Shown piece after piece: positions 2,940 to 63,933 of a stretch of DNA of 64,000 nucleotides. Within the stretch, counting starts at the first letter, position 1. The number at the start of each line of letters is the position of its first letter. Position numbers and translations under genes: made by a program. Below the pieces are notes generated by a model. The model was not told the origin of the DNA, did no database searches, and saw nothing but the letters and a program-made list of their open reading frames with translations. The DNA is from an uncultured Poribacteria bacterium (GTDB lineage: Bacteria > Poribacteria > WGA-4E > PCPOR2b), in the NCBI GenBank assembly GCA_958296125.1, contig OY282444.1:4249623-4313622 (forward strand), read 5' to 3'.

Positions 2940-3003
2940 TATGTATAAATATTATACATATCCACGTAATATGTATAATAATCGGCAAAAACTATACATA
3001 TTA
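2937..3003. promoter_or_regulatory. Paired inverted repeats, likely operator/promoter of the fic gene
   Basis: Four half-sites of TAATATGTATA type form two inverted repeats. The first has 9-bp arms at 2939-2947 and 2953-2961 with a 5-base centre. The second has 11-bp arms at 2967-2977 and 2993-3003. The left arms form a 30-bp-spaced direct repeat (about three helical turns), each preceded by CG. A TATAAT hexamer (2974-2979) overlaps the second repeat, so a bound protein would block initiation. The site starts over the stop codon of the methyltransferase and ends 24 bases before the fic ATG. Autoregulation by the winged-helix domain of Fic is an inference. Confidence 0.7.
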
Positions 3004-3027
3004 TCCCATCCCCAAAGGTGGTAGAAT

Positions 3028-4122
3028 ATGGCAACGCAGGTCCAATTTAATCGAGATACCCCATGGAACCACATTCCTACCCTTCCACCGATGGCGGATA
3101 TCGAATCACCTGACATACTCAGAGCGTGTATTTCGGCAAGTTCAGAGCTTGCGAAGGCGAACGCCTTGGTAAAGATGCTTCCGAACGAAGCGGTCTTGGT
3201 CCACACCTTACCTGTTCAGGAGGCACGCAGAAGTTCGGAAATCGAAAATATCGTCACCACTAACGATGAACTGTATCGAGCCATGGCCACTAACAAATCT
3301 CAAGTTTCGCCCGCTACCAAAGAGGTGCTGCACTATCGGGAAGCATTGTGGGAAGGCATCAGTAGCCTGCGCGCCCGCCCTATTCTGAACGTGCCTATCT
3401 TCGAGCGGATTTGCTCACGGATTCGTGACGTAGAGATGCGGGTGCGTCCGGGTCCGGTGACGATTAGCAATTTCGCCACAGAGGAGGTCATCTACACGCC
3501 TCCCACCGGATATGAGCATCTTATCGGATTGTTAACCAACCTTGAGCACTTCATCAATGACAATGGCGACAACCTCCAACCGCTCGTCAAAATGGCCGTG
3601 ATACACTACCAGTTTGAAGCGATACACCCTTTTACAGACGGCAACGGACGCACCGGACGCATACTCAATATCCTCTATCTGATCCATCAGGGGTTGCTCG
3701 ATGTCCCAATCCTCTACCTAAGCCGTTTTTTCATTCAAAATCGGTCTGAGTATTACCGTTATCTACGCGAAGTCACGGAAGCCGGGAAATGGCAGCAGTG
3801 GATACTCTATATTCTGGAAGCGGTGACGCAAACATCGCGAGATACTGGGCGCAGGATAGCGGCAATTAGTGCTCTGATTGACAACGTAATTACAAAGGCG
3901 CGTGGCAAAACGAAAGCCGTTGAGCGCGAAGGTTTTGTTGATCTACTGTTCAAGTGGCCTTATTGTAAAATCGGTATTGTCAAGGACGAGCTGAAGTGTA
4001 GTCGCCTTACCGCCACCAAATACCTGAATGAGATAACGGATATTGGGTTGCTTGAACGCTTGAAGCTTGGACGAGAATACTACTACATTAACACGAGGCT
4101 TATGGAATTGTTATCAGAGTGA
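3028..4122 (+). CDS. Fic family protein with C-terminal winged helix
   Basis: This 364-residue Fic protein would transfer AMP or another phosphate-containing group from a nucleotide to a hydroxyl side chain. The full active-site motif HPFTDGNGRTGR begins at H200. An N-terminal inhibitory motif of the (S/T)xxxE(G/N) type is present as S69-S-E-I-E73-N74, so this is a class II, self-inhibited Fic enzyme. The last ~80 residues resemble a winged helix-turn-helix that could bind DNA. The ATG at 3028 follows AAAGGTGG. The gene is 88 bases after the DUF1156 methyltransferase, and paired palindromes lie in the gap, suggesting separate, probably autogenous control. The stop falls just before the GIY-YIG gene. 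Whether it acts in defence, as a toxin or as a regulator is unknown. Confidence 0.9.
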   Translation: MATQVQFNRDTPWNHIPTLPPMADIESPDILRACISASSELAKANALVKMLPNEAVLVHTLPVQEARRSSEIENIVTTNDELYRAMATNKSQVSPATKEVLHYREALWEGISSLRARPILNVPIFERICSRIRDVEMRVRPGPVTISNFATEEVIYTPPTGYEHLIGLLTNLEHFINDNGDNLQPLVKMAVIHYQFEAIHPFTDGNGRTGRILNILYLIHQGLLDVPILYLSRFFIQNRSEYYRYLREVTEAGKWQQWILYILEAVTQTSRDTGRRIAAISALIDNVITKARGKTKAVEREGFVDLLFKWPYCKIGIVKDELKCSRLTATKYLNEITDIGLLERLKLGREYYYINTRLMELLSE

Positions 4123-23427: not shown

Positions 23428-24327
23428 ATGAGGAAATGCTTTTGCTACGGCATCTGGCTGTTACTTTTATTCCTAATTGTTGCTAGCTTGACACCGACTA
23501 CGATGGGATCACAGACTAACGGCTTAATCATCATGATAACCGATTTTGGTTTTAAGGATTTTTACGTCGGCGCGATGAAGGGCGCAATTTACAAGGTTTT
23601 CCCACAAGCAAAAATTGACGAGATTTCTCATGAAGTCTCAAAGTTTGATATTAAAGAGGGGGCATATACACTCGCCAAAGCGGCCCCAGAGTTTCCGCCG
23701 GGAACGGTCTTCGTTGCTGTTATCGATCCGGGGGTTGGGACCCACCGCAAACCTATCGTAATGAAAACGAAGAATGGGAACTATTTTGTTGCGCCGGATA
23801 ACGGACTTTTAACGCTGATTGGCGAAACAATGGGCACCGTAGCGGTCCGGGAAATTACAAACAGCGATGTCATGCGGAAGAATGTTCTGTCGAGCACGTT
23901 TCACGGTCGAGATATTTTTGGTCCAACCGCCGCCCATCTTGCCAAAGGGTTCGCGTTTGAAAAGGTTGGGCCCGTTTTGAAGGAGTATGTGCGGCTGCCG
24001 ATTTCGTTTGCAAAGCTGGTCGATGACGCAATTGTCGGTCAGATCGATGCGATTGACGAATATGGAAATGCCATCACGAACATACGTCCGAATCTGTTTG
24101 GGAAGCTGGGGATACAGGGTAGGCAAACCATTGAGGTCGAGTTTGGTGCCCAGCGGATAATCCGTTGCAAATATGTCAAGGCTTATGGGGATGTGCCGAT
24201 CGGCGATTATGTTGGCTTGTTTGGAAGCGGTGGCGTGTTTGAGATTGCCATCAACCAAGGCGATCTTGCCAAACAGTTAAAATTGGACACGTCAGCGGAA
24301 TTCATTGTGCGGAAGATGTCGGACTAA
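23428..24327 (+). CDS. Exported SAM hydrolase-like protein (DUF62 / SAM hydroxide adenosyltransferase)
   Basis: The 299-residue protein belongs to the DUF62 family, which splits S-adenosylmethionine into adenosine and methionine using water. Family motifs are ITDFGFKDFYVG at the start of the mature part, DPGVGTHR, APDNGLL and TFHGRDIFGP; the usual D-R-H catalytic residues are present. Unusually, it begins with a clear signal sequence (RK, then about 15 hydrophobic residues, ending near TTMGS), which would send it across the membrane. AAAGGAG precedes the ATG. The LamG gene follows 17 bases after the stop. A second copy without signal sequence lies at 50866. Confidence 0.87.
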   Translation: MRKCFCYGIWLLLLFLIVASLTPTTMGSQTNGLIIMITDFGFKDFYVGAMKGAIYKVFPQAKIDEISHEVSKFDIKEGAYTLAKAAPEFPPGTVFVAVIDPGVGTHRKPIVMKTKNGNYFVAPDNGLLTLIGETMGTVAVREITNSDVMRKNVLSSTFHGRDIFGPTAAHLAKGFAFEKVGPVLKEYVRLPISFAKLVDDAIVGQIDAIDEYGNAITNIRPNLFGKLGIQGRQTIEVEFGAQRIIRCKYVKAYGDVPIGDYVGLFGSGGVFEIAINQGDLAKQLKLDTSAEFIVRKMSD

Positions 24328-41444: not shown

Positions 41445-41524
41445 AAATGTGATTCTGCTGTCTTTGGGAATTGCGTTGTTCTAAAATTAATATTTCACAC
41501 GAATTACACGAAAAGAGAGGTTTT

Positions 41525-44500
41525 ATGATGATTAGACAAGAAGGGTTGAACCTTCAGAAGTTAAGTGTATTTTCAATTATCAGTTTGATGTTGGTTGCGG
41601 GCTTGTTCATTGACGAGGCCGCGCCTCAAACATCGACCCACTCGATATCGTTCCACTTTTTTTCAGAGGATGGCTCCACGGCCTTCACTAAGGCTGCGGT
41701 GGAGCGGGGTGGTGCCGGTCGCACTTACACGGTAGCCGTTAAGGCGACATGGTCTGGCCATACTCACAATGATGGGATTAGTATTGCTGTCCCAGACGGG
41801 TTCGAGATAGTGGATCCGGATGGGGCTGGCCCAGCAACGGGAGTAAGTGGCTATAGCTTTACCTCGGACTACCCGGATGACGCTGACCTGGGGGGGACTA
41901 TCACAGGGACAGATGCAGGGCCGGGTTCTCTGACTGTAAGACGGGGCTCGGATGGGGTGATCAAAGTGGAAAAAGCTTACGCTCTTATACCTGGTAGATA
42001 TTACGCAGTTTTTAAGGCAGTTTTCCCTGCCCCTACCGAGACAACTGAGTATACATTCACTCTCGAGGTCAAAGAAGGGTCCAGCGGTTTTGGGTCTCCG
42101 AACCCGGCCGGTGAGGGCAGCTATACTTTAACCCTCAGAGGAGTAGAAGAACCTGTAAAGGTAAAATGGGGGCACCGCACTATGCCCGACGAGGCCACCA
42201 CGGTCCCCACGACGCTTGTCGATGATATTTCTACTGCTGAAGGTGACCCTCTTCCTCCCCCTCTTGCTGCGGGTAGTGTTAACAATGTTCTGGAGTTTAA
42301 CTACTTGCCACAGGCTGAAAACATGGTTGGCGGTCGCTTTCGGGTTGCGATACCACCGGGTTGGAAGGTTTCTAACAAGTTCCTAAAAGTCTCAGTCAAA
42401 GAGGGTAATGGTGATGCTGCAGAGATATACGCAACGGATAAAGCTGGCACTGTCACCGCAGGTGCTAACCTCGCGAACACTAAAAACTTGACAAATGTAG
42501 AATTTACAGCGGACCAGCGGATAACCGTCACCTTCGGTTCAGATTGGGGTCCCCAGAGGGCTCCTGATAAAGCCCTCATCATTCGATTGGGTGATGTGAC
42601 TGCCGCTATCCCTAGGAGTCTGCCTAGCACGGACAATCGGAGGACTATCCTTGCGACTGAGACGGACGATGATGTCATGTATGCTTCCTATAACTTCCAA
42701 TGCAGTGAGACTACCAGGACCGGTGTTCTGAATCTATTAGCGTTTCCACCTGTAGTCAGGGTTGGCAATATCATAGGCGATACTGCAAATTCCCGTGACC
42801 CCCTCAAAAGAGAGCTTAAAATTACACCGGATCGGGTATTCCCGGGCGAGACAAAGACCCGATTCACGCTCACCTTTACAGCCCCTGGGCCGATGTATGG
42901 GGATAAGCTAATATTATCCTTTGGCCCCAGAGGAGCAGCAGGACATGCCCGTTTAGGGCCAAAGGATTCCCTCACGGTTGTTGCCGCTAATACTGAGACT
43001 ATGGATATGAGAGGCACTGCTGATGGCACTGATGGTAGTGATTTCACTGTGACAACAAGGGGCGGGGGGAGCGTTAATAAGACTGGATTGGAGGTTGAGG
43101 ATGGTGAGGCTGAGGGTGCCGATCCCACCATGGATCCTGCGAAACCCGCGAAGCTAACGATCCCGATTAATACGCTTGATATAGGTCAGCAAATTATCGT
43201 TTCCTATACTCGCGATGCCGCGATTGGGGATATGGCTACGGTTACGATTGATGGGGCTGACAAAGAACTCCCACCGGATATCACCGCGCAGACCGAGGTC
43301 ACGCGCGGTGTCCACGCTGATGTTGAGACGACTCTTATCAAAACTGAGACCACCGCTGTGACACCGAGTGGTGGGAGGTGGATTGATATTGACGGTTCTG
43401 GTAAGGTGGATCTGTCGCCGGTTTCAGTGGAGGCGGGTTCGCAGCGTCGGGATATCACCCTAACGTATACCGCGTATACCGACCTTACGGACACAACGAT
43501 CGTGATTACTCCGACCGGGCTTGTCATAGATGCCAGTGCCGATCAGATACTCCAGGATGATAACTCTGCTGCCTACGGGTATGTTACAGGTTCGGAGTCT
43601 GATAGTTTAGGGGTAACTGCTACGACGATAACTTGGACAAGTATCAGCCTTAAGAAAGGGAAAACGCTAACGGCGAGAATCCGCAGGGTCAACATCGTAG
43701 CCGAAGCGGACGAGTATCCCTGGGGGGTGACGGTTGGAGGTCCGAAACTTGTGGACGATCCGACCACCACAGATGTGAATGAGGAACCGATCCTCTCGGT
43801 TGTGAAGACATCGGGGGATGCGATAAAATTTGCAATTGATGGGGCCGACACATTCGATGCCGGCAGTGATGCCACGATCAATTTCAAGTTTACAGCGGAG
43901 TTGACACCGATAAGGGGTGGCTTGGTTCGATTGACCATCCCGTCCGCGTTGGGCAGTGCACCGACGAAGACGAAAGGGGTGGCGGGCCGGATAGCAGTCG
44001 ATGGCCAAGCGAAAAAGAGCGGAGGCACGGGGAGCGTTGGGGCCGATGAGATCACGGTCTCCGGTCGGACGATTAGCGTTGCGGTTGGGCAGCTGAATGT
44101 CGGTGAGTTCGTCACGATTACGTATGGTAGCACGGCTGATGATGGGAAGGCAGCGGTGTTACATCATGTCGCCGCTGATGTCAACGTAACCGGCACATTT
44201 AGAACCTCCTCAGGGGCGAGCACCCGGACGGCCGGGACGGTCACGGTGACGCTGGACAATATCAGCGATGGTAAGGGGACTGCGGTGCTATCACCGGCCT
44301 CAATCGAGGCGGGCAGTAGTCATCGGGCACTAGAGGTAACGTTCACAGCGGCGGGCACGATGGACGGGGGCGCGGTAAGCCTCGAGCTTCCATCGGGTTG
44401 GGGTTCGTTGCAGAATGACCCTCAAAAGCGGAATTATGTGACGACGCGCGGTTCGGGGGTCTCCTCATTGGAAATCACCAACAGCCTCGTGATCGCAACG

Positions 44501-47500
44501 ATTGATAAGCTCGCCAAAGGTGGAAGTTTCCGATTTATCTACGGCGGTGGGACCGGTTCCGATGTCGGTGCAGAGGTTCAGGATGTTGTTGGAACCGCTG
44601 ATTTCACGATTAAATCCGATGGGGGTGGGGACGGCGTTTTTGCCCTCATTACCAGTGAATTGGAGCACAAGGACCGGGAGAAGATAAGAAACCCTGACAA
44701 GACGGGGAAGATTTATAAAGATAAGCCCGGTGTCCTACAAATCAAAGTGACCAGTGCCTTGGACGGCACCGGAACCGTGGCAGTTGATACGACTACGGTT
44801 CGTGCAGCTGCGGACGATGTGAAATTGGTATTTACCTACACCCCGAGCCAGACTATTGAAGATGGGGAGTTGAAAATTACTGTGCCATCGAGCTGGAGTA
44901 AACCGCAAGTTGAAGAGGTGGGTGAACCGGGATATACCGAGGTGGAAGGCGTTGGGCTTGGCTCCGCCACAGACGATAATAAGTTCTCTGTGACCGTGCC
45001 TATCTTTTCGCTTGACAAAACCAATACTATCAAAATCACCTATGGTGCGACTGACACCGGGCGTGCGGTAGCCTCCGCTACGACGGGCACCGATGCGTTT
45101 CGGGTTGCGATTCGGGGACACCAAGGTGGCAACCTGGCCCCGCTACGCACGCAACCGACAATAACGGTCAACCCACAGGCGAGTGGGAAAGGTAAAGCAG
45201 TCCTTGCCGTGACCGATGGCGATGCGGCGCTCCATACCGGGGATACCGATCGCGAGCTGACTGTTACCTACACCGCGGCGGGTCAAATGATTGGGGGCAA
45301 GGTTCGATTGGCCATCCCCGCTGGTTGGTCTGCACCGAGTGCGGAGACGGTAACGGTAACACCTGCGTTTTCACCCACCTTTGACGGTCAAATGGTCATC
45401 GTTGAGGGTGTTAATCTGAGTGCGAACGGGACCGTGACGTTTGTCTACACAGGTGATGTGCAGCCTGCCGCAGGGACGGGTGTTGCATTTGCTGTCGCGG
45501 TTCACGGCGGTGACGCAGCCGATTCGTATGCCAATGTCTCTGGTGAGGCGACAATGCTCACCGTTGATGTTGGAGAGGCGAGACCGGGCTCCGGTTCAGG
45601 GACCGTTACACCGAAGATTGTCCAAGCGGGTGCCACAGGGGTGGACTTGACTTTTACCTACACCGCTGTCGGCATCATTGACGCGCCCCGTGAGTTCCGA
45701 GTTCAAGTTCCTGCTCCGTGGACAACACCCAACAGTGCTGCCGCTTCAGAGGAGGACAAGGGGACCTACACCGTGGTGCACAGACACCAGGGTGCCTCGA
45801 CGACGGTAAGTGTGGAAAAACTGGACCCCGTCGGCCGGGATATGGTTGCCCGCGTGAAGTTGGGTGGGCTTGAGGTGGAAGCGGGTGATGAGATTGTCTT
45901 CACCTATGAGAATGCCGATGCCCCGACTGCCCGTGAGGTCACGCCGTTCAAGATCCTATTTGATGGCGAGCCGATTGTAGCCGACGTTCAGGTTAGAGTC
46001 CAAGACTCCACACCGAGCCAGCTTTCGTTGAGCAGTGCCGGTGCCGTTTCTGCCGATGCCGGGGCACTGCCGCTAGCTATCACGATCGGGCTGCGAGATG
46101 CTGATGGCAATGAGACCGCGATGGGGACCGATGTCGATGTTACCCTAACCTCAACTTCAGCCGGCACCTTCGCTGAGACCGCTGAGGCGGTGGGGACCGA
46201 AGCTATCACCGTGACTATTCCTACGGGTGATGTTACCGCGATGGTCTACTATCAGGATTCAACAGTTGGGGCAGCGACGATTACCGCGAGCGCGCCGAAC
46301 CTAACACCGGCAGCGCATGCAGTGACGGTTACGAGCGATATGGTAACCCTTCTGACCGCTTCGATTGATGCAACGATGGCGAAGACGGGGGACACTGTTA
46401 CGGTCACCGCCACCGGCACCGCGAGTCAGATGCTAACCTTCTCAATTGGTTCGATTCTTACTGGAGCCGCAATGACCGAGTCGCCTGAAGGGACCTATAC
46501 CGGCAGCTACACAGCCGTTGCGGACCTACACGATGGAGTCCATGAGGTCACAGTTACGCTCACGGACACCAGTTCGAGCTTGTCTGCGGGGATGTTGACC
46601 GTTGACACGATGGCACCGGCGGTAACGGTGACCGCATCGCCTGACACCGTTTCAAACGGGGAGATGGTGACGATCTCGGCTACGGTTACAGATGCTGGAG
46701 CGATTGCTTCGGTGATGGCGGATGTCTCAATGCTGGATTCGACGCAAACGACGGTCGCACTGACCATGGCAGAAGATGCTTACAGTGCTGAAGTAACTAT
46801 CAGTGCAGATAACGAAGCGATGAACGGTATGCAAACCATCACAGTAACAGCGATGGATGCTGCCGGCAATAGTGGCATGGCCTCTGCGATGGTCATGTTA
46901 CAAAATAGCCTCGAATACACTTCGATGATACCGTCAGGGGTTAGCTTGTTCCACGTGCCACTCAAGGTTGAAGGCCTCGACACTGTGGCCGATCTCCGCG
47001 AGATGATTGGCGATGCCGCCACGCTCGCCATTACCTATGATGGCAGTTCGTGGAATAGCCGCAGCGGTGCCTTGACGATAACCGCTGACCTGGGGATTGT
47101 CCTTTCGATGACCGCTGACACAACGGTCACCTTCACCGGTGAGGCGTGGGACGATGGCACCATTAACCTCAGTGCGGGACAGAACCTTGTCGGGCTGCCC
47201 CTCAACGATGCAAGCGTAACCAATATCAGCGACATCATAACGCTGTTTGATGGAAGTGTCGCAAACATCATTGTTTCAATCGACGGCAACTTCCAAGCCA
47301 TCAGTCGAGCCGGGGACCCCGGAGACGGGCCTGTCATGGGGGACGCAGCATATCTCATAACGGCGACTGCTGATGCTTCTGCAACGGTCACCGGGGACGG
47401 GTGGACTAACGACACGCTGGCAGGGGCTGCACCTATTGCGCTCGCTGGATACAAGGTTGACGGTCAAACCCCGGTCCTTGATGTTCACGGTGCTGTTGTT

Positions 47501-48085
47501 GACGAAGTCACCGGACTCGCAAAGGAAGGCTTCCGCGTCAAGGTGAAGAACCTATCAACAAAAGCCTCGCTCAGCCGGATCACCTCCGATGAAACGGCAG
47601 CAGTCGCGTACAACATGACCTTTGTTGACCTTAATGACGCTCACGCCGCACGGGTCGGTGATGTCCTTGAGATTTCCGTTGATTCACCTGACCCGTTGAT
47701 TGGGGTCAAGCCGGTGCGCCACATCGTTACAGTAGATGATGTGAAGAGCGGTATCCTTGAGGTGGAAGACCTCATCGCTTATGAGATTCCGGCAGAGACC
47801 GAACTGCTTCGGAACTATCCAAATCCGTTCAACCCAGAAACGTGGATTCCGTATCGTCTGGCAGAAGATGCTGATGTTACGTTGACCCTCTACGATTCCA
47901 CCGGGCGAGTGGTGCGAACCCTTGATCTCGGCCATCAAACCGCAGCGGTTTATGAGTCGAGAGCCAAAGCTATCTACTGGGATGGCAGAAACCGATTCGG
48001 GGAACAGGTTGCTAGTGGCATTTACTTCTATAGCCTCAGTGCCGGTGACTTCTCTGCCACCCGCAAGATGCTGATTCTAAAATAA
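41525..48085 (+). CDS. Giant secreted repeat protein with C-terminal sorting-type domain
   Basis: The 2,186-residue protein starts with a signal sequence (SVFSIISLMLVAGLFI). About eight diverged beta-sandwich repeats of ~140-160 residues follow; typical cores read LTVTYTAAGQMIGGK and VRLAIPAGW, and the eight begin near 42280, 42830, 43400, 43840, 44270, 44760, 45180 and 45580. Next come Big/Ig-like domains (near 46000-46900), a domain around 46900-47420, and a C-terminal ~90-residue FlgD-like/T9SS-type module with NYPNPFNP and ending in RKMLILK. It is probably exported and held at the surface. The ATG at 41525 is chosen because GAGAGG precedes it; the next ATG (41528) is equally possible. A strong terminator follows. 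Confidence 0.85.
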   Translation: MMIRQEGLNLQKLSVFSIISLMLVAGLFIDEAAPQTSTHSISFHFFSEDGSTAFTKAAVERGGAGRTYTVAVKATWSGHTHNDGISIAVPDGFEIVDPDGAGPATGVSGYSFTSDYPDDADLGGTITGTDAGPGSLTVRRGSDGVIKVEKAYALIPGRYYAVFKAVFPAPTETTEYTFTLEVKEGSSGFGSPNPAGEGSYTLTLRGVEEPVKVKWGHRTMPDEATTVPTTLVDDISTAEGDPLPPPLAAGSVNNVLEFNYLPQAENMVGGRFRVAIPPGWKVSNKFLKVSVKEGNGDAAEIYATDKAGTVTAGANLANTKNLTNVEFTADQRITVTFGSDWGPQRAPDKALIIRLGDVTAAIPRSLPSTDNRRTILATETDDDVMYASYNFQCSETTRTGVLNLLAFPPVVRVGNIIGDTANSRDPLKRELKITPDRVFPGETKTRFTLTFTAPGPMYGDKLILSFGPRGAAGHARLGPKDSLTVVAANTETMDMRGTADGTDGSDFTVTTRGGGSVNKTGLEVEDGEAEGADPTMDPAKPAKLTIPINTLDIGQQIIVSYTRDAAIGDMATVTIDGADKELPPDITAQTEVTRGVHADVETTLIKTETTAVTPSGGRWIDIDGSGKVDLSPVSVEAGSQRRDITLTYTAYTDLTDTTIVITPTGLVIDASADQILQDDNSAAYGYVTGSESDSLGVTATTITWTSISLKKGKTLTARIRRVNIVAEADEYPWGVTVGGPKLVDDPTTTDVNEEPILSVVKTSGDAIKFAIDGADTFDAGSDATINFKFTAELTPIRGGLVRLTIPSALGSAPTKTKGVAGRIAVDGQAKKSGGTGSVGADEITVSGRTISVAVGQLNVGEFVTITYGSTADDGKAAVLHHVAADVNVTGTFRTSSGASTRTAGTVTVTLDNISDGKGTAVLSPASIEAGSSHRALEVTFTAAGTMDGGAVSLELPSGWGSLQNDPQKRNYVTTRGSGVSSLEITNSLVIATIDKLAKGGSFRFIYGGGTGSDVGAEVQDVVGTADFTIKSDGGGDGVFALITSELEHKDREKIRNPDKTGKIYKDKPGVLQIKVTSALDGTGTVAVDTTTVRAAADDVKLVFTYTPSQTIEDGELKITVPSSWSKPQVEEVGEPGYTEVEGVGLGSATDDNKFSVTVPIFSLDKTNTIKITYGATDTGRAVASATTGTDAFRVAIRGHQGGNLAPLRTQPTITVNPQASGKGKAVLAVTDGDAALHTGDTDRELTVTYTAAGQMIGGKVRLAIPAGWSAPSAETVTVTPAFSPTFDGQMVIVEGVNLSANGTVTFVYTGDVQPAAGTGVAFAVAVHGGDAADSYANVSGEATMLTVDVGEARPGSGSGTVTPKIVQAGATGVDLTFTYTAVGIIDAPREFRVQVPAPWTTPNSAAASEEDKGTYTVVHRHQGASTTVSVEKLDPVGRDMVARVKLGGLEVEAGDEIVFTYENADAPTAREVTPFKILFDGEPIVADVQVRVQDSTPSQLSLSSAGAVSADAGALPLAITIGLRDADGNETAMGTDVDVTLTSTSAGTFAETAEAVGTEAITVTIPTGDVTAMVYYQDSTVGAATITASAPNLTPAAHAVTVTSDMVTLLTASIDATMAKTGDTVTVTATGTASQMLTFSIGSILTGAAMTESPEGTYTGSYTAVADLHDGVHEVTVTLTDTSSSLSAGMLTVDTMAPAVTVTASPDTVSNGEMVTISATVTDAGAIASVMADVSMLDSTQTTVALTMAEDAYSAEVTISADNEAMNGMQTITVTAMDAAGNSGMASAMVMLQNSLEYTSMIPSGVSLFHVPLKVEGLDTVADLREMIGDAATLAITYDGSSWNSRSGALTITADLGIVLSMTADTTVTFTGEAWDDGTINLSAGQNLVGLPLNDASVTNISDIITLFDGSVANIIVSIDGNFQAISRAGDPGDGPVMGDAAYLITATADASATVTGDGWTNDTLAGAAPIALAGYKVDGQTPVLDVHGAVVDEVTGLAKEGFRVKVKNLSTKASLSRITSDETAAVAYNMTFVDLNDAHAARVGDVLEISVDSPDPLIGVKPVRHIVTVDDVKSGILEVEDLIAYEIPAETELLRNYPNPFNPETWIPYRLAEDADVTLTLYDSTGRVVRTLDLGHQTAAVYESRAKAIYWDGRNRFGEQVASGIYFYSLSAGDFSATRKMLILK

Positions 48086-48325: not shown

Positions 48326-49105
48326 CTAATCACTAAATTTTTCAAAATACTGATCAATCTCAGATCGTAATTCAATACCAACTCTTTCAAAACAGTCTAA
48401 TAAATGCTGATACGCGCCATTTCCGCCTAAAAAATTCCAAAATTCATCGGCAACTTTCAGTTCTTGTTCTACATCTAACATCCCTTTTAATGTCCAGCGT
48501 TCATAGGGCTTGGGTTCGTACGGATTGTAAGGAATTGCAATGAGAGAGTGAATATCAAGGTCTGGATCCTTTGCCAAAGCAATTGCACACCACTCTAACA
48601 GCGTTCTCTTAAAATCTTTGAAATTACTGATATTCGGCTTGGCCGTTTTCAAATCGAAAAGAAATAATGAACCTTCATCGTTTTCAATCAACAAATCAGC
48701 CTTCACAGCTCGCAATCTATTCATTCCACCTGTTTGACATACATCTCTAATCCTCTGAATTTCTTCACGCTTATCAGGATCTGTATCTCCTATTGTTAGT
48801 TTATTCATAATATGCTGAATTTCGTTTTGGGCATCTTCGCTGATCTTGTTGCCAACCACATATTGTGATTGTGCTTTTGCGAAACGGGTTTTGGCTAATG
48901 TCTCCGCCACTGGCTCAAAAATGGATGTTCCGAATGTTGTATTCAATGACTGAATAAATGAATAGAGAGCCATTCTATCTTGCCCTAACAAGCGATAGTG
49001 AAAGGGCATATTTTTAGATTCCCGTTTGTAATTTTGAAATTTTTTCCTTAAACTTTCTTTGATTGTTGCTTCGACTGATGTTGTTTGTTCCTTGGATAAC
49101 GGCAT
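48326..49105 (-). CDS. TdeIII-like type II restriction endonuclease
   Basis: The 259-residue protein resembles the TdeIII family of type II restriction enzymes. Shared segments include GTSIFEPVAETLAK and RTLLEWCAIALA, and the PD-(D/E)XK core is visible as a KADLLIEN strand with an aspartate followed by LFDLKTAKPN (D-x-K). The C-terminus GIELRSEIDQYF is also typical. The family prototype is reported to recognise GGNCC; this specificity is inferred only by similarity. AGGTTGAG precedes the ATG. It follows the methyltransferase gene by 19 bases. The region is AT-richer than its surroundings, which suggests transfer. Confidence 0.85.
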   Translation of the reverse strand: MPLSKEQTTSVEATIKESLRKKFQNYKRESKNMPFHYRLLGQDRMALYSFIQSLNTTFGTSIFEPVAETLAKTRFAKAQSQYVVGNKISEDAQNEIQHIMNKLTIGDTDPDKREEIQRIRDVCQTGGMNRLRAVKADLLIENDEGSLFLFDLKTAKPNISNFKDFKRTLLEWCAIALAKDPDLDIHSLIAIPYNPYEPKPYERWTLKGMLDVEQELKVADEFWNFLGGNGAYQHLLDCFERVGIELRSEIDQYFEKFSD

Positions 49106-49124
49106 ATTTATCTCAACCTGTACG

Positions 49125-50711
49125 CTATTTTGATTTCAAATGGAAAATACTTTCGGAGTACGCGCCTTTGCCCTTTTCTGTCCTGTTGAGAACAGGTCGT
49201 TTATATTGATTGACAATTCGCATTTCCGAATGCTCCGCAATCGTTGAATACATGTTGAACTTATCATTTGCTACCAGAAAAACATCATAATCTTGGACTA
49301 AGAATTTCGTGCAATTCCTCAATACTGCTGAAATACCTTTGATATATTGTTCTCTGGCTTCTTTTCCTTTACCCTTGAAGAGCGGTCCAATTTCTAATTC
49401 ATCTTTTCGATCAAATTCAAATAAATCATAGGCGTAGGCGTGTTGTTCGTGATAGTTGATAAGCCCAACATACGGTGGGCTAGAGAAAACGCCTTTCACC
49501 TTCTGTTCCTTCACAAATTGGGCAAAACCTGGGTTATCTGCCTTTAATGCTTCGATAATATCAATTGTCCGAGAATCTCCAGTCAGACAGGTTTGAAACG
49601 TATTGGTTCTCAATTGATCAAACTGAACAAGGCGTTGAATTGTATCTTGACTGTATCGTTCCCACCAACTTAATATTGAAAACAACGGCTTGCACATTTT
49701 ACCGTGTTTAGCACAGTAATAAACTGCTGCTATAGGTTCTTTTAAGGTTGCCAAATCTGCATGAGTCGTTGCTCGGCAAGTACGAATCGTTCGACTCAAA
49801 ATGATCTGGACTACCCGTTGTGTTTCACGGTTTTGGATGTGTTTAACGCGCTCAAAGAGAAAGTCGATCTCTTCCCTTACAGTCAATAAATACCACATAT
49901 CGAGGAAGTTTTCTGATTTTCTTTGCCACAATTTGATTCCATATTGGTTAATTAGTTGAAAATATCTGAGTGAGAATTGGTCCTCTTTTTCTTTTCCGTA
50001 TTTCTCTTGATTAATCAGACCCTGCCTGACTTGGTATTTGAAATCAGGGGACGGGAAATATTCGTGATTAAACTCGTTAAGTTCCGCAGTGAGTTGTGCT
50101 TCAAATTGAGCGATATTGGATTCGCTGATAAATCGTTTAAGACCGTTTGTGATGTTGTGAAGTTCATTCTGTACATCAACGAGATGATGTTTCTCTATTT
50201 TGATGTTACTGATGAGCGTATTAAATGCGGAAATATCAATGCCGATAGCGTGCATTCCAAGTTCGTTGGCTTGTACCAGTGTTGTACCGCTACCACAAAA
50301 CGGATCAAGGATAATATCGCCTTGTTTGAAACACGCATCTTTTTTGAAATCATCTGTATGACTATCTAGGAAGTATTCAACCAGTTGGGGGATGAATTTG
50401 CCTTTATATGGGTGGAGTCTATGGACATGTTTCGTCGTATCGGCTTCTTTCAGATAATCAAATGACAACTCCCAATTGATGTCTGCGCCTAATTGTGCCT
50501 TCCAGTTGATTTCTCGTGTTCCTAGATATGAATGATAGTATTTAATCAAATCCTGTTTTGAGACCCTTGTGGAACCGTTGTTGTCGTATTTCCGAATCCT
50601 TCCATACTGAATTAGATAAGATATGTTGGAAGCGGTCACATTTTTTTTAAGATAATCCGTTGCCCATTTGCTGGCTTGAGGAATGGTCATTAAATCTCTG
50701 TCATCAATCAT
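49125..50711 (-). CDS. DNA methyltransferase of the TdeIII-like R-M system (probable N4-cytosine type)
   Basis: The 528-residue methyltransferase should protect host DNA from the endonuclease encoded next. Motif I is DPFCGSGTT at 136-144 and the catalytic motif is SPPY at 411-414 followed by VGLINYHEQHAYAYDLF; SPPY is typical of N4-cytosine enzymes. Residues ~8-65 form a helix-turn-helix-like DNA-binding region. Motif I lies before motif IV with a long region between them, as in beta-type enzymes. AAAGGTGA precedes the ATG, and a good promoter lies upstream at 50769-50797. Confidence 0.87.
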   Translation of the reverse strand: MIDDRDLMTIPQASKWATDYLKKNVTASNISYLIQYGRIRKYDNNGSTRVSKQDLIKYYHSYLGTREINWKAQLGADINWELSFDYLKEADTTKHVHRLHPYKGKFIPQLVEYFLDSHTDDFKKDACFKQGDIILDPFCGSGTTLVQANELGMHAIGIDISAFNTLISNIKIEKHHLVDVQNELHNITNGLKRFISESNIAQFEAQLTAELNEFNHEYFPSPDFKYQVRQGLINQEKYGKEKEDQFSLRYFQLINQYGIKLWQRKSENFLDMWYLLTVREEIDFLFERVKHIQNRETQRVVQIILSRTIRTCRATTHADLATLKEPIAAVYYCAKHGKMCKPLFSILSWWERYSQDTIQRLVQFDQLRTNTFQTCLTGDSRTIDIIEALKADNPGFAQFVKEQKVKGVFSSPPYVGLINYHEQHAYAYDLFEFDRKDELEIGPLFKGKGKEAREQYIKGISAVLRNCTKFLVQDYDVFLVANDKFNMYSTIAEHSEMRIVNQYKRPVLNRTEKGKGAYSESIFHLKSK

Positions 50712-50865: not shown

Positions 50866-51666
50866 ATGGATCTTGCTCCGTCCCACATTATCACACTGAT
50901 GACCGATTTTGGAACAAGCGATCACTACGTCGGCATCATGAAAGGTGTGGCTCTGAATATCAATCCGCAAGTTCAGATTGTCGATATAACACATGCTATT
51001 CCGCCGCAGGATGTTCACGCTGCTGCATTGCTGATTGATTCAGCGTATCGCTATTTCCCAACCGGAACTATCCATGTGGTAGTCGTGGATCCGGGGGTGG
51101 GCAGCGAACGCCGAGCCATCGTTTGCCAAACAGAAACAGCCTACTTCGTCTGCCCGGATAACGGAATTTTGACCCATATCCTCCGTGATGAAGAGCGTAT
51201 CCACACCGTAGCAGTGGAAAATTCGGCTTACTTCCTGCCGCAGGTGAGCAACACCTTTCATGGGCGGGATATTTTTGCCCCAGTTGCAGCGCACCTTTCA
51301 CGCGGCGAACCGATCGGTCAGTTGGGGAGCCCGATTGCACATCCCGTGCTACTCCCCGTCTCAAGCCCTCAAATGACGGACGAAGCGGTTATCGGGCACG
51401 TCATCTGGATTGATTCCTTCGGGAATTTGGTCACGAACCTTTCTCACGAAATATTGGAGGGGCTGGAGGGACGAAATGGTGTTGTTATCCGTGCGGGAAC
51501 AGCAGAGATAGATCATCTCAACCATTCTTACGCTGAATCTGCGGTCGGTGAGGCTTTAGCAATCATCGACAGCTTTAATCGGTTGGAGATCTCAATTAAC
51601 CAAGGCAATGCGGCACAAACCCTTGGACTGAAGCGGGGGGATACGATCACAATTTGTATGCCATAA
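50866..51666 (+). CDS. SAM hydrolase-like protein (DUF62), cytoplasmic copy
   Basis: The 266-residue protein is a second member of the DUF62 family. Motifs are LMTDFGTSDHYVG, DPGVGSERR, CPDNGIL, TFHGRDIFAP and SFNRLEISINQGNAA. The D-R-H residues of the hydrolase triad are present, and it lacks a signal sequence, unlike the copy at 23428. It should hydrolyse S-adenosylmethionine. GAGGTGG precedes the ATG. It diverges from the restriction-modification operon and converges on the PhyH gene. Both copies share all motifs, but the sequences are well diverged. Confidence 0.9.
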   Translation: MDLAPSHIITLMTDFGTSDHYVGIMKGVALNINPQVQIVDITHAIPPQDVHAAALLIDSAYRYFPTGTIHVVVVDPGVGSERRAIVCQTETAYFVCPDNGILTHILRDEERIHTVAVENSAYFLPQVSNTFHGRDIFAPVAAHLSRGEPIGQLGSPIAHPVLLPVSSPQMTDEAVIGHVIWIDSFGNLVTNLSHEILEGLEGRNGVVIRAGTAEIDHLNHSYAESAVGEALAIIDSFNRLEISINQGNAAQTLGLKRGDTITICMP

Positions 51667-59510: not shown

Positions 59511-60899
59511 ATGTTTGGAGCAACTCGTCATATTCACATCATCGGCATTGGTGGGTCCGGACTCAGCGGGATTGCTGAGATCTTGTTGAATCTCAATTTT
59601 CAGGTATCCGGATCCGATTTACGCGAAACAGAAGTCACCGAGCGTTTGGCAACATTAGGCGCGCGTGTTTATTATGGCCATGCGGCTGAACAGATTGCCG
59701 GCGCGGATGTTGTCGTGATGTCGCCCGCCGTTTCACTCCAGAATCCGGAGGTGGTTGCGGCGAAGGAACGCAAAATTTCTATTATTCGTGGCGCAGAAAT
59801 GCTCGCAGAGATTATGCGGATGAAGTTCAGTATTGCAGTGAGTGGCACGCACGGAAAAACCACCACAACCGCGATGACAGCGGCGGTGCTGGACAAGCTG
59901 GATCCAACCGTTGTCGTTGGAGGGAAGTTGGTCAGCTTGGGCAGCCATGCACGCATCGGGCAGGGGGAAATGATGGTGGTTGAGGCGGACGAAGCCTACG
60001 GTTCTATCGAAAAATTCTTCCCAACGATCGCGGTGGTGACATCGGTTGATGCCGATCACCTTGACTATTACAACAGCGTTGAAGAAATTAGCGAGACGTT
60101 TCTCAAATTCATCAACAAGGTCCCGTTTTACGGGACTGCGGTGCTATGCTTGGACCAGGAAAACATCCAGCAGCTAATCCCTCGAATCGAAAAACGCTAT
60201 GTGACTTATGGCATTGAAACTCGCGCGGACCTGATGGCAGAGCGGTTGAGTGTCGAAGGGCCAACTTCTCACTACCGCATCCATGCACACGGCGAGATAT
60301 TGGGAAAGGTCCATCTCAAAATGCCGGGCAACCACAATATCTTAAACTCATTGGCAGCAGTCGCGGTTGGACTGGAGTTGGGGGTGCCGTTCGATTCCAT
60401 TCGAGATGCCTTGGAATCGTTCCGCGGGGTTCATCGTCGTTTTGAAATTATTGGTCGGGTCAACGACATCATTGTGGTTGACGATTATGCACACAATCCC
60501 GCGAAACTGAAAGCGACCTTTCGTGCGGCCCGTGAAAGCTACAATCGCCGGATTGTCACTGTTTTCCAGCCACATCGTTATCAGCGGGTGAAGCATCTTG
60601 CCGAAGAGTTTTCGAGGTCGTTCTATCAAACGGACGTGCTCATCGTTACCTCAATCTACGGAGCCGGGGAGGCCCCGGTCGAGGGAGTCACTGCGGAAAA
60701 ATTGGCACATGCGATTCAAGCCCATGGGCATCGGGATGTGATTTATATTCCTGACAAAAACAAGATTACGGAAACTCTGGCAAAAATCGTTCGTCCGAAT
60801 GATATTGTTATCACAGTTGGGGCGGGTGACATCTGGCAAGTTGGCCGTGAATTATTGGAAAAGCTTGGCGGAACTAGTGGGGTGCCAAACAAAGATTGA
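59511..60899 (+). CDS. murC: UDP-N-acetylmuramate:L-alanine ligase
   Basis: MurC (462 residues) adds L-alanine to UDP-MurNAc with ATP. The N-terminal HIIGIGGSGLSG, the ATP loop SGTHGKTTT at 111-119, DDYAHNP and VTVFQPHRYQR are typical. The usual EADESDGSF motif reads VEADEAYGSIEKF here, so the SDGS part is changed while the acidic residues remain. The length is standard. AGAAAG is a weak Shine-Dalgarno before the ATG. The next gene in the strand is a DNA methyltransferase, not murB or ddl. Confidence 0.96.
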   Translation: MFGATRHIHIIGIGGSGLSGIAEILLNLNFQVSGSDLRETEVTERLATLGARVYYGHAAEQIAGADVVVMSPAVSLQNPEVVAAKERKISIIRGAEMLAEIMRMKFSIAVSGTHGKTTTTAMTAAVLDKLDPTVVVGGKLVSLGSHARIGQGEMMVVEADEAYGSIEKFFPTIAVVTSVDADHLDYYNSVEEISETFLKFINKVPFYGTAVLCLDQENIQQLIPRIEKRYVTYGIETRADLMAERLSVEGPTSHYRIHAHGEILGKVHLKMPGNHNILNSLAAVAVGLELGVPFDSIRDALESFRGVHRRFEIIGRVNDIIVVDDYAHNPAKLKATFRAARESYNRRIVTVFQPHRYQRVKHLAEEFSRSFYQTDVLIVTSIYGAGEAPVEGVTAEKLAHAIQAHGHRDVIYIPDKNKITETLAKIVRPNDIVITVGAGDIWQVGRELLEKLGGTSGVPNKD

Positions 60900-60931: not shown

Positions 60932-60960
60932 TTGATATTTGCAGTTGTTTGTAGTATGAT
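60932..60960 (+). promoter_or_regulatory. Promoter of the MT-A70 methyltransferase gene
   Basis: TTGATA (60932-60937), 17 bases and TATGAT (60955-60960) lie about 110 bases before the ATG, so the gene can be expressed independently of murC. Confidence 0.58.
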
Positions 60961-61068
60961 TAATCACACTGTGGCCAAATAAACTCTACAATTTCGATTG
61001 GATAAAGATTTGCACAATAACAAGAGCAGCTTGTGGGCCCTCATAAGGGGGCGCATTGATCGAAAACG

Positions 61069-61740
61069 ATGAATCCTACTAGCTATTCGATTTATAACGA
61101 AGAAGTCAAAGTTCGGACACAATTAAACTGGCTAGATGGTATATTTCCGCCACTACCGAATAAAAAATATGATATTATTTATGCCGATCCGCCGTGGCAC
61201 TATAACGGGAAGCTGCAGTTTGATAAAAGTGGAACACTAGAAAAGAATAATGGTTGGCAGGATAGAATATTTGTGAGTTCTGCATGTTTTAAGTATCCAA
61301 CTATTCCTACGGACGAGTTAAAGAAACTACCAGTCCAACAAATTGCAAAAGATAACTCTTTATTGTTTCTATGGACCACTAATCCGCATTTAGCGCAAGC
61401 TATTGAATTAGGCGTAGCTTGGGGATTTGAATATAAGACCGTTGCTTTTGTGTGGAACAAAATGAGCCATAACCCTGGGCATTATACGTTATCTTATTGC
61501 GAACTATGTCTTTTGTTCAAGCGAGGTCGAATTCCTACACCCAGAGGTGCAAGAAATGTTAAACAATTAATTGAAGTCCCTCGCAACAAACATAGCGAAA
61601 AGCCTATCGAAGTTGCCCAAGGTATAATACGAATGTTTCCTTATCAATCCCGGATTGAACTGTTTGCTCGGGATAGCAAGGACGGTTATAATTCTTGGGG
61701 ACTGGATATCAATCAAGATGAGGAGCAATGTGCTCAATAA
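61069..61740 (+). CDS. MT-A70 family DNA methyltransferase
   Basis: The 223-residue protein is an MT-A70-like methyltransferase expected to modify adenine at N6. The catalytic DPPW is at 40-43, followed by LLFLWTTNPHL, and the C-terminal YNSWGLDI is typical. The gene is AT-richer than the dcw genes on both sides, has no good Shine-Dalgarno and has its own promoter, all pointing to insertion. No restriction enzyme gene lies next to it, so it may be an orphan methyltransferase. Target sequence unknown. Confidence 0.88.
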   Translation: MNPTSYSIYNEEVKVRTQLNWLDGIFPPLPNKKYDIIYADPPWHYNGKLQFDKSGTLEKNNGWQDRIFVSSACFKYPTIPTDELKKLPVQQIAKDNSLLFLWTTNPHLAQAIELGVAWGFEYKTVAFVWNKMSHNPGHYTLSYCELCLLFKRGRIPTPRGARNVKQLIEVPRNKHSEKPIEVAQGIIRMFPYQSRIELFARDSKDGYNSWGLDINQDEEQCAQ

Positions 61741-61850
61741 AATGGAGTCCTAGCAAATTAGAATTATTGCTGTGCCAAAAAAGAAGTTATCGATATATTC
61801 ATCGGACCAGCAGGCACATATAACATACGCATCCACTAGGTCTAGATTTC

Positions 61851-62690
61851 GTGCAATTTTCATCGCTTCAATTTTCCAATCGGTTTAAAGACCGCCTACT
61901 TCCAGCACCTAAAGATTCCCCGCGTCATGTCGGGCGGTATTTAATAATTGGCATGGCATGTATTATTGGACTGCTTTTCATTCACTACTCGACAACAAAG
62001 ATTGGTCTGTTTCGTGTGAAGCGAATTTCCGTTTCCGGCAACGAGCACTATACACAGAAGGAAGTGATTGCCGCTTTAGATTTAAGCCATCGACACAGTG
62101 ATGTGCATACCATTTCAAGGGATGCAATTGAAGAACGTCTCAAACAAAAACTGAGTTACGTTAAACAAGCAAACATCTCAAAAAGCATTCTGAAACGCTC
62201 GTTGACGCTCGAGATAACTGAAAGAGAACCTGTTGCATTGCTGAAATATCCTGAAAACAGTCGCATCCCCTTTGTGCTGGTTGATCTTGAGGGATATGTG
62301 TTAGAATATATCGAGTCGCCACCAGCTTCCAGTTCAGTTGTTATGATTGTCAGTGCTGGACGGCGAGTCCCCAGCGTGGGAGATCGAGTGAATTCTGATA
62401 GTGTTCAACTTGCCCTTAATGTGTTAAATTTGGCTCTGAGTCTAACACCGGAAATTGTCACCACGCTACAAACGATTGATGCGAATCAGCCGGATAAGAT
62501 TACTCTCGAATTTAGTAGGATTCCTATAGTATGGCTTTCATCAGATTTTATTAAAAACGGAATTTATCATATTAGTCTATTTATGAAAAATCGAGCGATG
62601 CTTATGAAGAAAGGGCAACCTACTTCAGATCCTCTTAGTGGCTATTTGGACGCGAGGTTCAAAGACGCTGTATATTGGGGAGGGCAATAA
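61851..62690 (+). CDS. ftsQ: Cell division protein FtsQ/DivIB
   Basis: FtsQ (279 residues) is a single-pass inner-membrane protein that links the divisome. It has a short cytoplasmic tail, one membrane helix at about 29-47, then a POTRA domain (FRVKRISVSGNEHYTQKEVI) and the beta domain with ITEREPVALL. It starts with GTG at 61851; no ATG is usable, because the first internal one lies in the membrane helix, and no strong Shine-Dalgarno is seen. The ftsA start follows its stop by one base. About 110 bases separate it from the methyltransferase. Confidence 0.9.
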   Translation: MQFSSLQFSNRFKDRLLPAPKDSPRHVGRYLIIGMACIIGLLFIHYSTTKIGLFRVKRISVSGNEHYTQKEVIAALDLSHRHSDVHTISRDAIEERLKQKLSYVKQANISKSILKRSLTLEITEREPVALLKYPENSRIPFVLVDLEGYVLEYIESPPASSSVVMIVSAGRRVPSVGDRVNSDSVQLALNVLNLALSLTPEIVTTLQTIDANQPDKITLEFSRIPIVWLSSDFIKNGIYHISLFMKNRAMLMKKGQPTSDPLSGYLDARFKDAVYWGGQ

Positions 62691-62691
62691 T

Positions 62692-63933
62692 ATGGCGGGA
62701 GAAGATATCATTGTTGGCCTAGATATCGGCACCAGCAAAATTGCTGTAATTATCGGAAATACTTGGCAGGGCGATCCCGAAAAGATTGAGATTATAGGCG
62801 TTGGCACTGCCCCTTCGGAAGGATTGCGGAAGGGGGTGGTTGTCGATATAGATCTCACGACAACGGCGATTCGTCATGCTGTTGAAACCGCTGAGCTCAT
62901 GGCAGGCGTGCAGATTGGCTCTGTATATGCCGGAATCGCAGGCGGGCATATCACCGGACAAGCTTCTCACGGCCTCGTTGCGGTTTCAGGAGAAGGACAC
63001 GAGATTACGCAATCCGATGTAGAACGCGCAATCAACGCTGCACAGGCACTAAAGATTCCGGTTGAACGGGAGATACTTCATGTGATTCCACAAGGCTTTA
63101 TCGTTGACAATCAGGATGGCATTAAAGATCCGGTGGGTATGTCCGGAATTCGTCTTGAAGCTTATGTTCACATTGTGACCGGTGCGGTTGCATCCGCGCA
63201 AAACCTTGTCAAAAGTATTTATAATGCGGGGATTTCTGTTGAAGATATCATCTTAGAGCCGATCGCCTCCGCCAAATCGGTCTTAACGCCTGAAGAAAAA
63301 GGGGTGGGGGTCGCTCTCGCCGACATGGGGGGAGGCACCACAGATATTGTGGTTTACAAAGATGGGGCCCTCCATCATTCGGCGGTGCTTTCGCTTGGCG
63401 GCCAGCATATTACCAATGATATTGCACAACTGTTAAAAATGACACCACAGGAGGCAGACAAGCTGAAACTGCGCTACGGTTGTGCATCGGTTGACTTCGT
63501 GGAGCGGAATGAGGCCATTCCAATTTCGACGGTGGGTGGTGTCCACAAACCGCGTTTCATCACTCGACGCGATCTGGCAGAAATTATTCAATGTCGTATG
63601 GATGAATTCTTAAATCTAATTGGTCAGGAAATCTACAACTGTAACCTCACCATACCGGCTGGGATTGTGCTTACCGGTGGGACCGCGCTGCTTGATGGGC
63701 TGCTCGAATCGGCCGAACAGGCTTTTCCCTGTCCAGTGCGGATCGGGTATCCTTGTCCACTGAAAGGATTAACGGAGAAAATACATAGTCCAATCTATGC
63801 AACGGGGGTTGGGCTTGTCCTTGACGGTGCAATGGAACATTATCATGCGCCCAAAAGGACCTTCATCAAAGGGACAAACTTATTTGATCAAATCTTCAAA
63901 CGTATGAAGCATTGGTTTCAGGAATGGTTGTAA
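62692..63933 (+). CDS. ftsA: Cell division protein FtsA
   Basis: FtsA (413 residues) is an actin-like ATPase that tethers FtsZ to the membrane. The N-terminal VGLDIGTSKIAVII, the ADMGGGTTDIVVY phosphate loop and LTGGTALLDGL are present, and the 1C-type insertion region VSGEGHEITQSDV is typical. The C-terminal amphipathic tail (NLFDQIFKRMKHWFQEWL) would insert into the membrane. The ATG at 62692 has GGGGAGGG at ideal spacing; a longer frame overlaps ftsQ. ftsZ would be expected beyond the window edge. Confidence 0.96.
   Translation: MAGEDIIVGLDIGTSKIAVIIGNTWQGDPEKIEIIGVGTAPSEGLRKGVVVDIDLTTTAIRHAVETAELMAGVQIGSVYAGIAGGHITGQASHGLVAVSGEGHEITQSDVERAINAAQALKIPVEREILHVIPQGFIVDNQDGIKDPVGMSGIRLEAYVHIVTGAVASAQNLVKSIYNAGISVEDIILEPIASAKSVLTPEEKGVGVALADMGGGTTDIVVYKDGALHHSAVLSLGGQHITNDIAQLLKMTPQEADKLKLRYGCASVDFVERNEAIPISTVGGVHKPRFITRRDLAEIIQCRMDEFLNLIGQEIYNCNLTIPAGIVLTGGTALLDGLLESAEQAFPCPVRIGYPCPLKGLTEKIHSPIYATGVGLVLDGAMEHYHAPKRTFIKGTNLFDQIFKRMKHWFQEWL

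Follow-up and report, generated by a model that had tools for sequence, protein, structure and literature searches.

What is a DNA adenine methyltransferase gene doing between murC and ftsQ, in the division and cell wall (dcw) gene cluster of an uncultured bacterium, and how did it come to be there? The gene lies in a stretch of 64,000 nucleotides, here called the window (contig OY282444.1, positions 4,249,623 to 4,313,622), of a 5.16-Mb, single-contig genome (GCA_958296125.1; G000 below), whose relatives are recorded publicly as Candidatus Poribacteria. An earlier note, made from the letters of the sequence, had suggested that the methyltransferase could couple DNA modification to division or be a chance insertion. 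The gene order in the window is murD-ftsW-murG-murC-methyltransferase-ftsQ-ftsA, with ftsW assigned from its position and the conserved order in relatives. The features of the murC-ftsQ interval and its flanks are listed in Table 1.

Table 1. Features of the murC-ftsQ interval and flanking genes (window coordinates).
Feature	Position	Strand	Evidence
murC, left neighbour, dcw cluster	59511..60899	+	Pfam Mur_ligase, Mur_ligase_M, Mur_ligase_C
Sigma-70-like promoter TTGATA-17-TATGAT	60932..60960	+	Scan; matching element in sister species
Ribbon-helix-helix gene remnant	60971..61015	+	Alignment; G001-G005 have an intact ORF
Leader common to the G003 cassette	61013..61068	+	blastn G000-G003, 88.5% over 803 bp
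MT-A70 adenine methyltransferase, MunI type, intact	61069..61740	+	Pfam, PHROG, alignment with homologues
R.MunI-like endonuclease gene stub, frameshifted, residues 162-196 of 196	61712..61815	-	tblastn and DNA alignment
Ordinary ftsQ spacer, sister similarity resumes	61816..61850		blastn with G001, G002, G004, G005
ftsQ, right neighbour	61851..62690	+	Pfam POTRA_1
ftsA	62692..63933	+	Pfam FtsA, SHS2_FTSA

The methyltransferase ORF has an ATG start and encodes 223 aa. It matches Pfam MT-A70 (PF05063) with 75 bits against a cut-off of 23.9 and PHROG 359 ‘DNA methyltransferase’ with an E value of 1e-62, and is the only MT-A70 match by Pfam in the genome. DPPW, the catalytic motif of MT-A70 methyltransferases, occupies residues 41-44 within YADPPWHYNG in the alignment with homologues. 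NCBIfam gave no name to this protein or to FtsQ. The G+C content of the gene is about 39%, compared with about 50% over murC and ftsA; ftsQ is also low (40-44%). The identification as an MT-A70 gene and the AT-richness reported in the earlier note were thereby confirmed, as was its count of three DNA methyltransferases in the window, the others by Pfam being DUF1156/D12 (117-2939) and N6_N4_Mtase (49125-50711).

These two lie in settings of their own. The N6_N4_Mtase gene adjoins a gene for a TdeIII-type endonuclease (PF09520, E 1.5e-90) at 48326-50711 on the minus strand, apparently a complete second restriction-modification (R-M) system, at a distance of 11-12 kb from the MT-A70 gene. The DUF1156/D12 protein, of 940 aa, is followed by a Fic-domain protein (SoFic-like) at 117-4122 on the plus strand, the two possibly belonging to a locus for defence or modification whose start lies before the window. 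Two SAM hydroxide adenosyltransferase genes (SAM_HAT_N/C, a family that includes SAM halogenases) are located at 23428-24324 and 50866-51663 (+), the latter directly adjoining the TdeIII R-M system, and a long ORF (2204 codons, start codon TTG) extends from 41471 to 48085 (+).

A homologue of the window methyltransferase is encoded in 59 of the 117 genomes examined. Within the genus it was found in two of six genomes (G000 and G003; 91% identical), and within family f1 in the same number out of nine, G003 being the one that keeps its endonuclease. The genus- or family-wide presence that would mark a housekeeping CcrM/Dam-type solitary gene was not found; FtsA was present in all six genus genomes. 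The four remaining members of the genus (G001, G002, G004, G005) have murC and ftsQ separated by approximately 0.72-0.79 kb between blast matches, with no methyltransferase; the corresponding gap is about 0.09-0.32 kb, again with no methyltransferase, in G006-G008, the rest of family f1, and about 1.9 kb including the cassette in G003. In relatives, 20 dcw loci were mapped, and a methyltransferase match was obtained in G003 alone (L022, being identical with the G003 contig, was counted once); interval lengths are given without L064, L065 and L073, in which ftsQ had no match, and L071, which holds only the murC end. Insertion, the second suggestion of the earlier note, is thus supported by the four genomes that have both neighbours and no methyltransferase between them, and by the full R-M cassette at this place in G003. 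The genes murB and ddl are outside the interval, at 3.31 Mb and 3.17 Mb of G000, as the note had implied. Replacement of murB or ddl by the methyltransferase was considered and rejected: neither gene was present in the murC-ftsQ interval of the five sister genomes, which hold other DNA there.

The interval of G003 contains, in order, a small ribbon-helix-helix ORF, the methyltransferase and a convergent ORF of 196 aa. The last matches Pfam RestrictionMunI (PF11407) with an E value of 8.3e-66 and, over its full length, R.MunI (PDB 1d02) with an E value of 1.7e-56; it stands tail-to-tail with the methyltransferase, with overlapping 3' ends. The dcw cluster of G003 therefore holds a complete MunI-like Type II system. 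R.MunI, a Type II enzyme with a solved structure, is named in the review PMC4081073, and bacterial MT-A70 methyltransferases are termed ‘MunI-like’ in PMC12695648.

The segment common to G000 and G003 extends from approximately 61013 to approximately 61814 and is 88.5% identical by blastn. When the G003 endonuclease was used as tblastn query, the window matched residues 172-196 (80% over 25 aa) and 162-174 (69% over 13 aa) with an E value of 2e-9. The DNA alignment places the two matches in different frames, separated by a 1-bp deletion; about 35 codons at the end of the endonuclease gene are kept, and they overlap the methyltransferase gene at its 3' end. No PF11407 match was obtained in the whole G000 genome. 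The endonuclease deletion is read from one assembled genome. Because an intact R.MunI-type endonuclease is missing beside it, the window locus is a solitary methyltransferase and is not classed as an R-M system. The likeness to the MunI Type II system lies in G003, where a full-length R.MunI homologue adjoins the orthologue of the window methyltransferase; the difference lies in the window endonuclease, which is a stub. Considering the whole system in the G003 interval, the stub in the window and the patchy presence in the genus, the window gene is very probably the orphaned modification half of a horizontally acquired, decayed MunI-like Type II R-M system.

The methyltransferase itself is constrained, as judged from sequence comparison, and carries no signs of decay. 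The dN/dS between the G000 and G003 copies is 0.10, and of the 20 residue differences between them outgroups place 3 on the G000 branch and 9 on the G003 branch, with 8 unplaced. Since it shows no decay, the orphan enzyme is probably still active, or was so until recently.

The earlier note had credited the gene with a promoter of its own. The element TTGATA-17 bp-TATGAT, with 10 of 12 consensus positions, is indeed located now about 110 bp upstream of the methyltransferase, but in the sister species it belongs to the ribbon-helix-helix gene. The small ORF of this gene is intact in the murC-ftsQ interval of all five sisters (G001-G005), and matches Pfam DUF6290 in G003 (28 bits) and G004 (32 bits) against a cut-off of 27. 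The promoter in front of it reads TTGATA-17-TATAAT in G001-G004 and TTGAAA-17-TATAAT in G005. In the window the remnant has GTG in place of ATG and TAA at codon 4, and it stops after about 15 codons. Conservation in the sister species is a better argument for the promoter than the scan score, as the region contained 6 promoter-like sites versus 3.7 +/- 2.2 in shuffles. The methyltransferase would now be transcribed from this former ribbon-helix-helix promoter. The DUF6290 gene is a genus-specific gene inside the dcw cluster with a near-consensus promoter, broken in the window species alone.

The closest homologues found outside the genus, besides those of viral contigs L090-L092, are in a Chitinivibrionia bacterium (L023; methyltransferase 65%, endonuclease 56% identical) and a Woesearchaeote (L024; 64% and 52%). 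Like the G003 genes, both are convergent pairs with overlapping 3' ends; unlike the window locus, they keep the full endonuclease and are located outside a dcw cluster. In a tree of 51 proteins, kept after removal of identical rows, the genes of the genus (g1), those of L023 and L024 and those of the viral contigs L090-L092 form one clade with support 98/94, so that the window enzyme groups with MT-A70 methyltransferases that are cognate to R.MunI-type endonucleases. The R.MunI-paired homologues in these two hosts point to horizontal transfer. The fraction of differing fourfold sites between G000 and G003 is 0.29 of 69 in the methyltransferase and 0.49 of 859 in five dcw genes (Fisher p 0.0016, with sites treated as independent), and dS is 0.42 in the methyltransferase versus 0.84-1.02 in flanking dcw genes. 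These values point to a common ancestor of the two copies that is younger than the surrounding genes, and therefore to horizontal movement; the low G+C content of the methyltransferase could explain part of its lower synonymous divergence, and the interval for the fourfold difference in ftsQ alone (0.35-0.55) overlaps that in the methyltransferase (0.19-0.41). Searches of mobile collections for R.MunI homologues yielded none confirmed in IMG/VR, none in PLSDB and one partial match in phage records, and no mobile vector was identified in these three sources.

The recognition sequence of R.MunI is CAATTG. Because the endonuclease is homologous to R.MunI, this sequence is the most likely predicted target of the window methyltransferase. 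Counts of CAATTG were taken over 20 whole genomes and over a six-genome dcw alignment. The density per Mb, from counts and rounded genome sizes, is 335-397 in the four non-carriers; G000, with 300, has the lowest value of the six genus genomes, and G003, with 335, is level with G002, the non-carrier most closely related to it. Five dcw sites occur in at least two of the four non-carriers, and of these one is retained in G000 and three in G003; of 80 sites of other palindromes in the same alignment, the two genomes keep 31% and 45%. Avoidance of CAATTG as a mark of long residence was rejected, there being no clear depletion in the carriers and a dcw retention like that of other palindromes. The lack of clear avoidance fits a recent acquisition and gives no positive support for CAATTG as the target. 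The spacer of the ribbon-helix-helix promoter contains CAATTG in G001, G002, G004 and G005 only, with CAGTTG and CAATGA in the two carriers; this loss is real, but it was set aside as evidence, dcw-wide site retention being ordinary.

Three other explanations were weighed. A methyltransferase recruited to the dcw cluster, so that methylation helps to time or tune murC-ftsQ-ftsA expression, after the model of CcrM or Dam, would suit an intact and constrained gene in a conserved, essential cluster, and the CAATTG in the promoter spacer of four sister species that lack the enzyme would offer it a site of action. That site, however, is gone in both carriers, which leaves no target there, site retention in the dcw genes is ordinary, related enzymes elsewhere belong to R-M pairs, and only two of the six genus genomes carry the gene, behind a promoter that belongs to a deleted neighbour. 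Regulatory coupling, and with it the suggestion in the earlier note of a link between methylation and division, is regarded as highly improbable. Slightly less remote, and still quite unlikely, is the arrival of a solitary gene, for instance from a phage, with the stub as the end piece of a longer stretch of transferred DNA and never a full endonuclease at this place. Viral contigs L090-L092 do encode a 65% homologue with no R.MunI homologue within the stretch examined, the copies in G000 and G003 diverged later than the flanking genes, and a pan-genome survey states that solitary genes mostly come as such and rarely derive from degraded complete systems (PMC4176335). Against this stands G003, with the nearest known copy: its murC-ftsQ interval contains the complete cassette, and in the window the stub follows on from the methyltransferase exactly as the endonuclease gene does there.

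The third concerns history alone, and its probability overlaps with that of the preferred explanation. The cassette may have entered the same spacer twice, independently, inside the ribbon-helix-helix gene in G000 and after it in G003. The synonymous divergence below that of flanking core genes agrees with such a course, as do the common segment, which begins at nearly the same base despite different left contexts, and the ftsQ-side spacer of G000, which is most similar to that of G001, not G003. For a spacer of about 0.7 kb to be struck twice, a site preference would nevertheless be required, and no sign of an integrase, a transposase or a target duplication was noticed. The same observations are explained by a single insertion that spread through recombination in the flanks and was followed by a deletion, with a short CAC match at its left junction. 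Double insertion is therefore held to be possible, although somewhat doubtful.

According to the preferred explanation, decay of an acquired MunI-like system, a cassette would have been acquired horizontally into the murC-ftsQ interval, and its endonuclease gene would then have been lost through in-place deletion, leaving the C-terminal stub. A further deletion on the left side, or the insertion itself, may have placed the methyltransferase downstream of the ribbon-helix-helix promoter. The enzyme would still make N6-methyladenine, most likely within CAATTG, and its present effect would be protection of host DNA from MunI-type endonucleases, together with incidental epigenetic marking. The position between murC and ftsQ would be a tolerated insertion site in the genus with no role in division.

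A second, older orphan was found in Poribacteria family f3, which belongs to the same order. A methyltransferase homologue, 52-58% identical to that of the window, is encoded in 56 of 58 f3 genomes, and in all ten mapped loci (L077-L083, L085-L087) it is located 3' of the IMP dehydrogenase gene guaB. A ferredoxin-type ORF lies between the two in eight of these loci, and an ORF of about 930 aa follows the orphan in nine, the tenth contig ending there. PF11407 had no match in any f3 genome, and no endonuclease remnant was detected beside the orphan in the ten loci (best E 0.095, chance level). The gene is strongly constrained, with a dN/dS of 0.035-0.087 in the nine pairs whose dS is under 1.2. 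Like the window gene, it belongs to the MunI-type methyltransferase group (support 100/99) in genomes without the endonuclease; it differs in being fixed behind guaB, evidently old, and placed in a separate sub-clade with its sister G072, where an R.MunI homologue lies next to the methyltransferase gene, in tandem with it (the 56 f3 homologues are represented in the tree by 25 rows). Two independent orphanings, an old one in f3 and a recent one in the window, are the simplest reading; as the root of the f3-G072 clade is not fixed, G072 may instead have gained its endonuclease later, with no orphaning in f3. The f3 orphan is a candidate lineage-wide epigenetic enzyme.

Dam and CcrM are conserved across their lineages. 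The window gene resembles them as a solitary adenine methyltransferase and differs in its occurrence in only two of six genus genomes; a closer parallel to them is the f3 orphan. Orphan methyltransferases form an established class (PMC12707154). Searches of the literature on MunI, on orphan methyltransferases, on R-M systems and methylomes of Poribacteria and on methyltransferases near dcw-ftsQ turned up nothing on the window gene. Set beside the survey cited above, the window is a clear instance of the rarer route, orphaning through decay of a complete system.

The tempting lead of a methylation tied to cell division is hereby removed. In its place stands a clear example of a methyltransferase orphaned where it lies: a sister species keeps the complete system, and what is left of the endonuclease gene can still be read. 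Combined with the f3 orphan, this example opens the path from an immune gene to a lineage-wide methylation mark for testing. It is tentatively proposed that MunI-type methyltransferases were orphaned repeatedly in Poribacteria, that one of them is now a lineage-wide epigenetic gene, and that the window represents the first step. If this is true, the Poribacteria would offer a natural time series of methyltransferase domestication, in which the window is the stage with its stub still attached.
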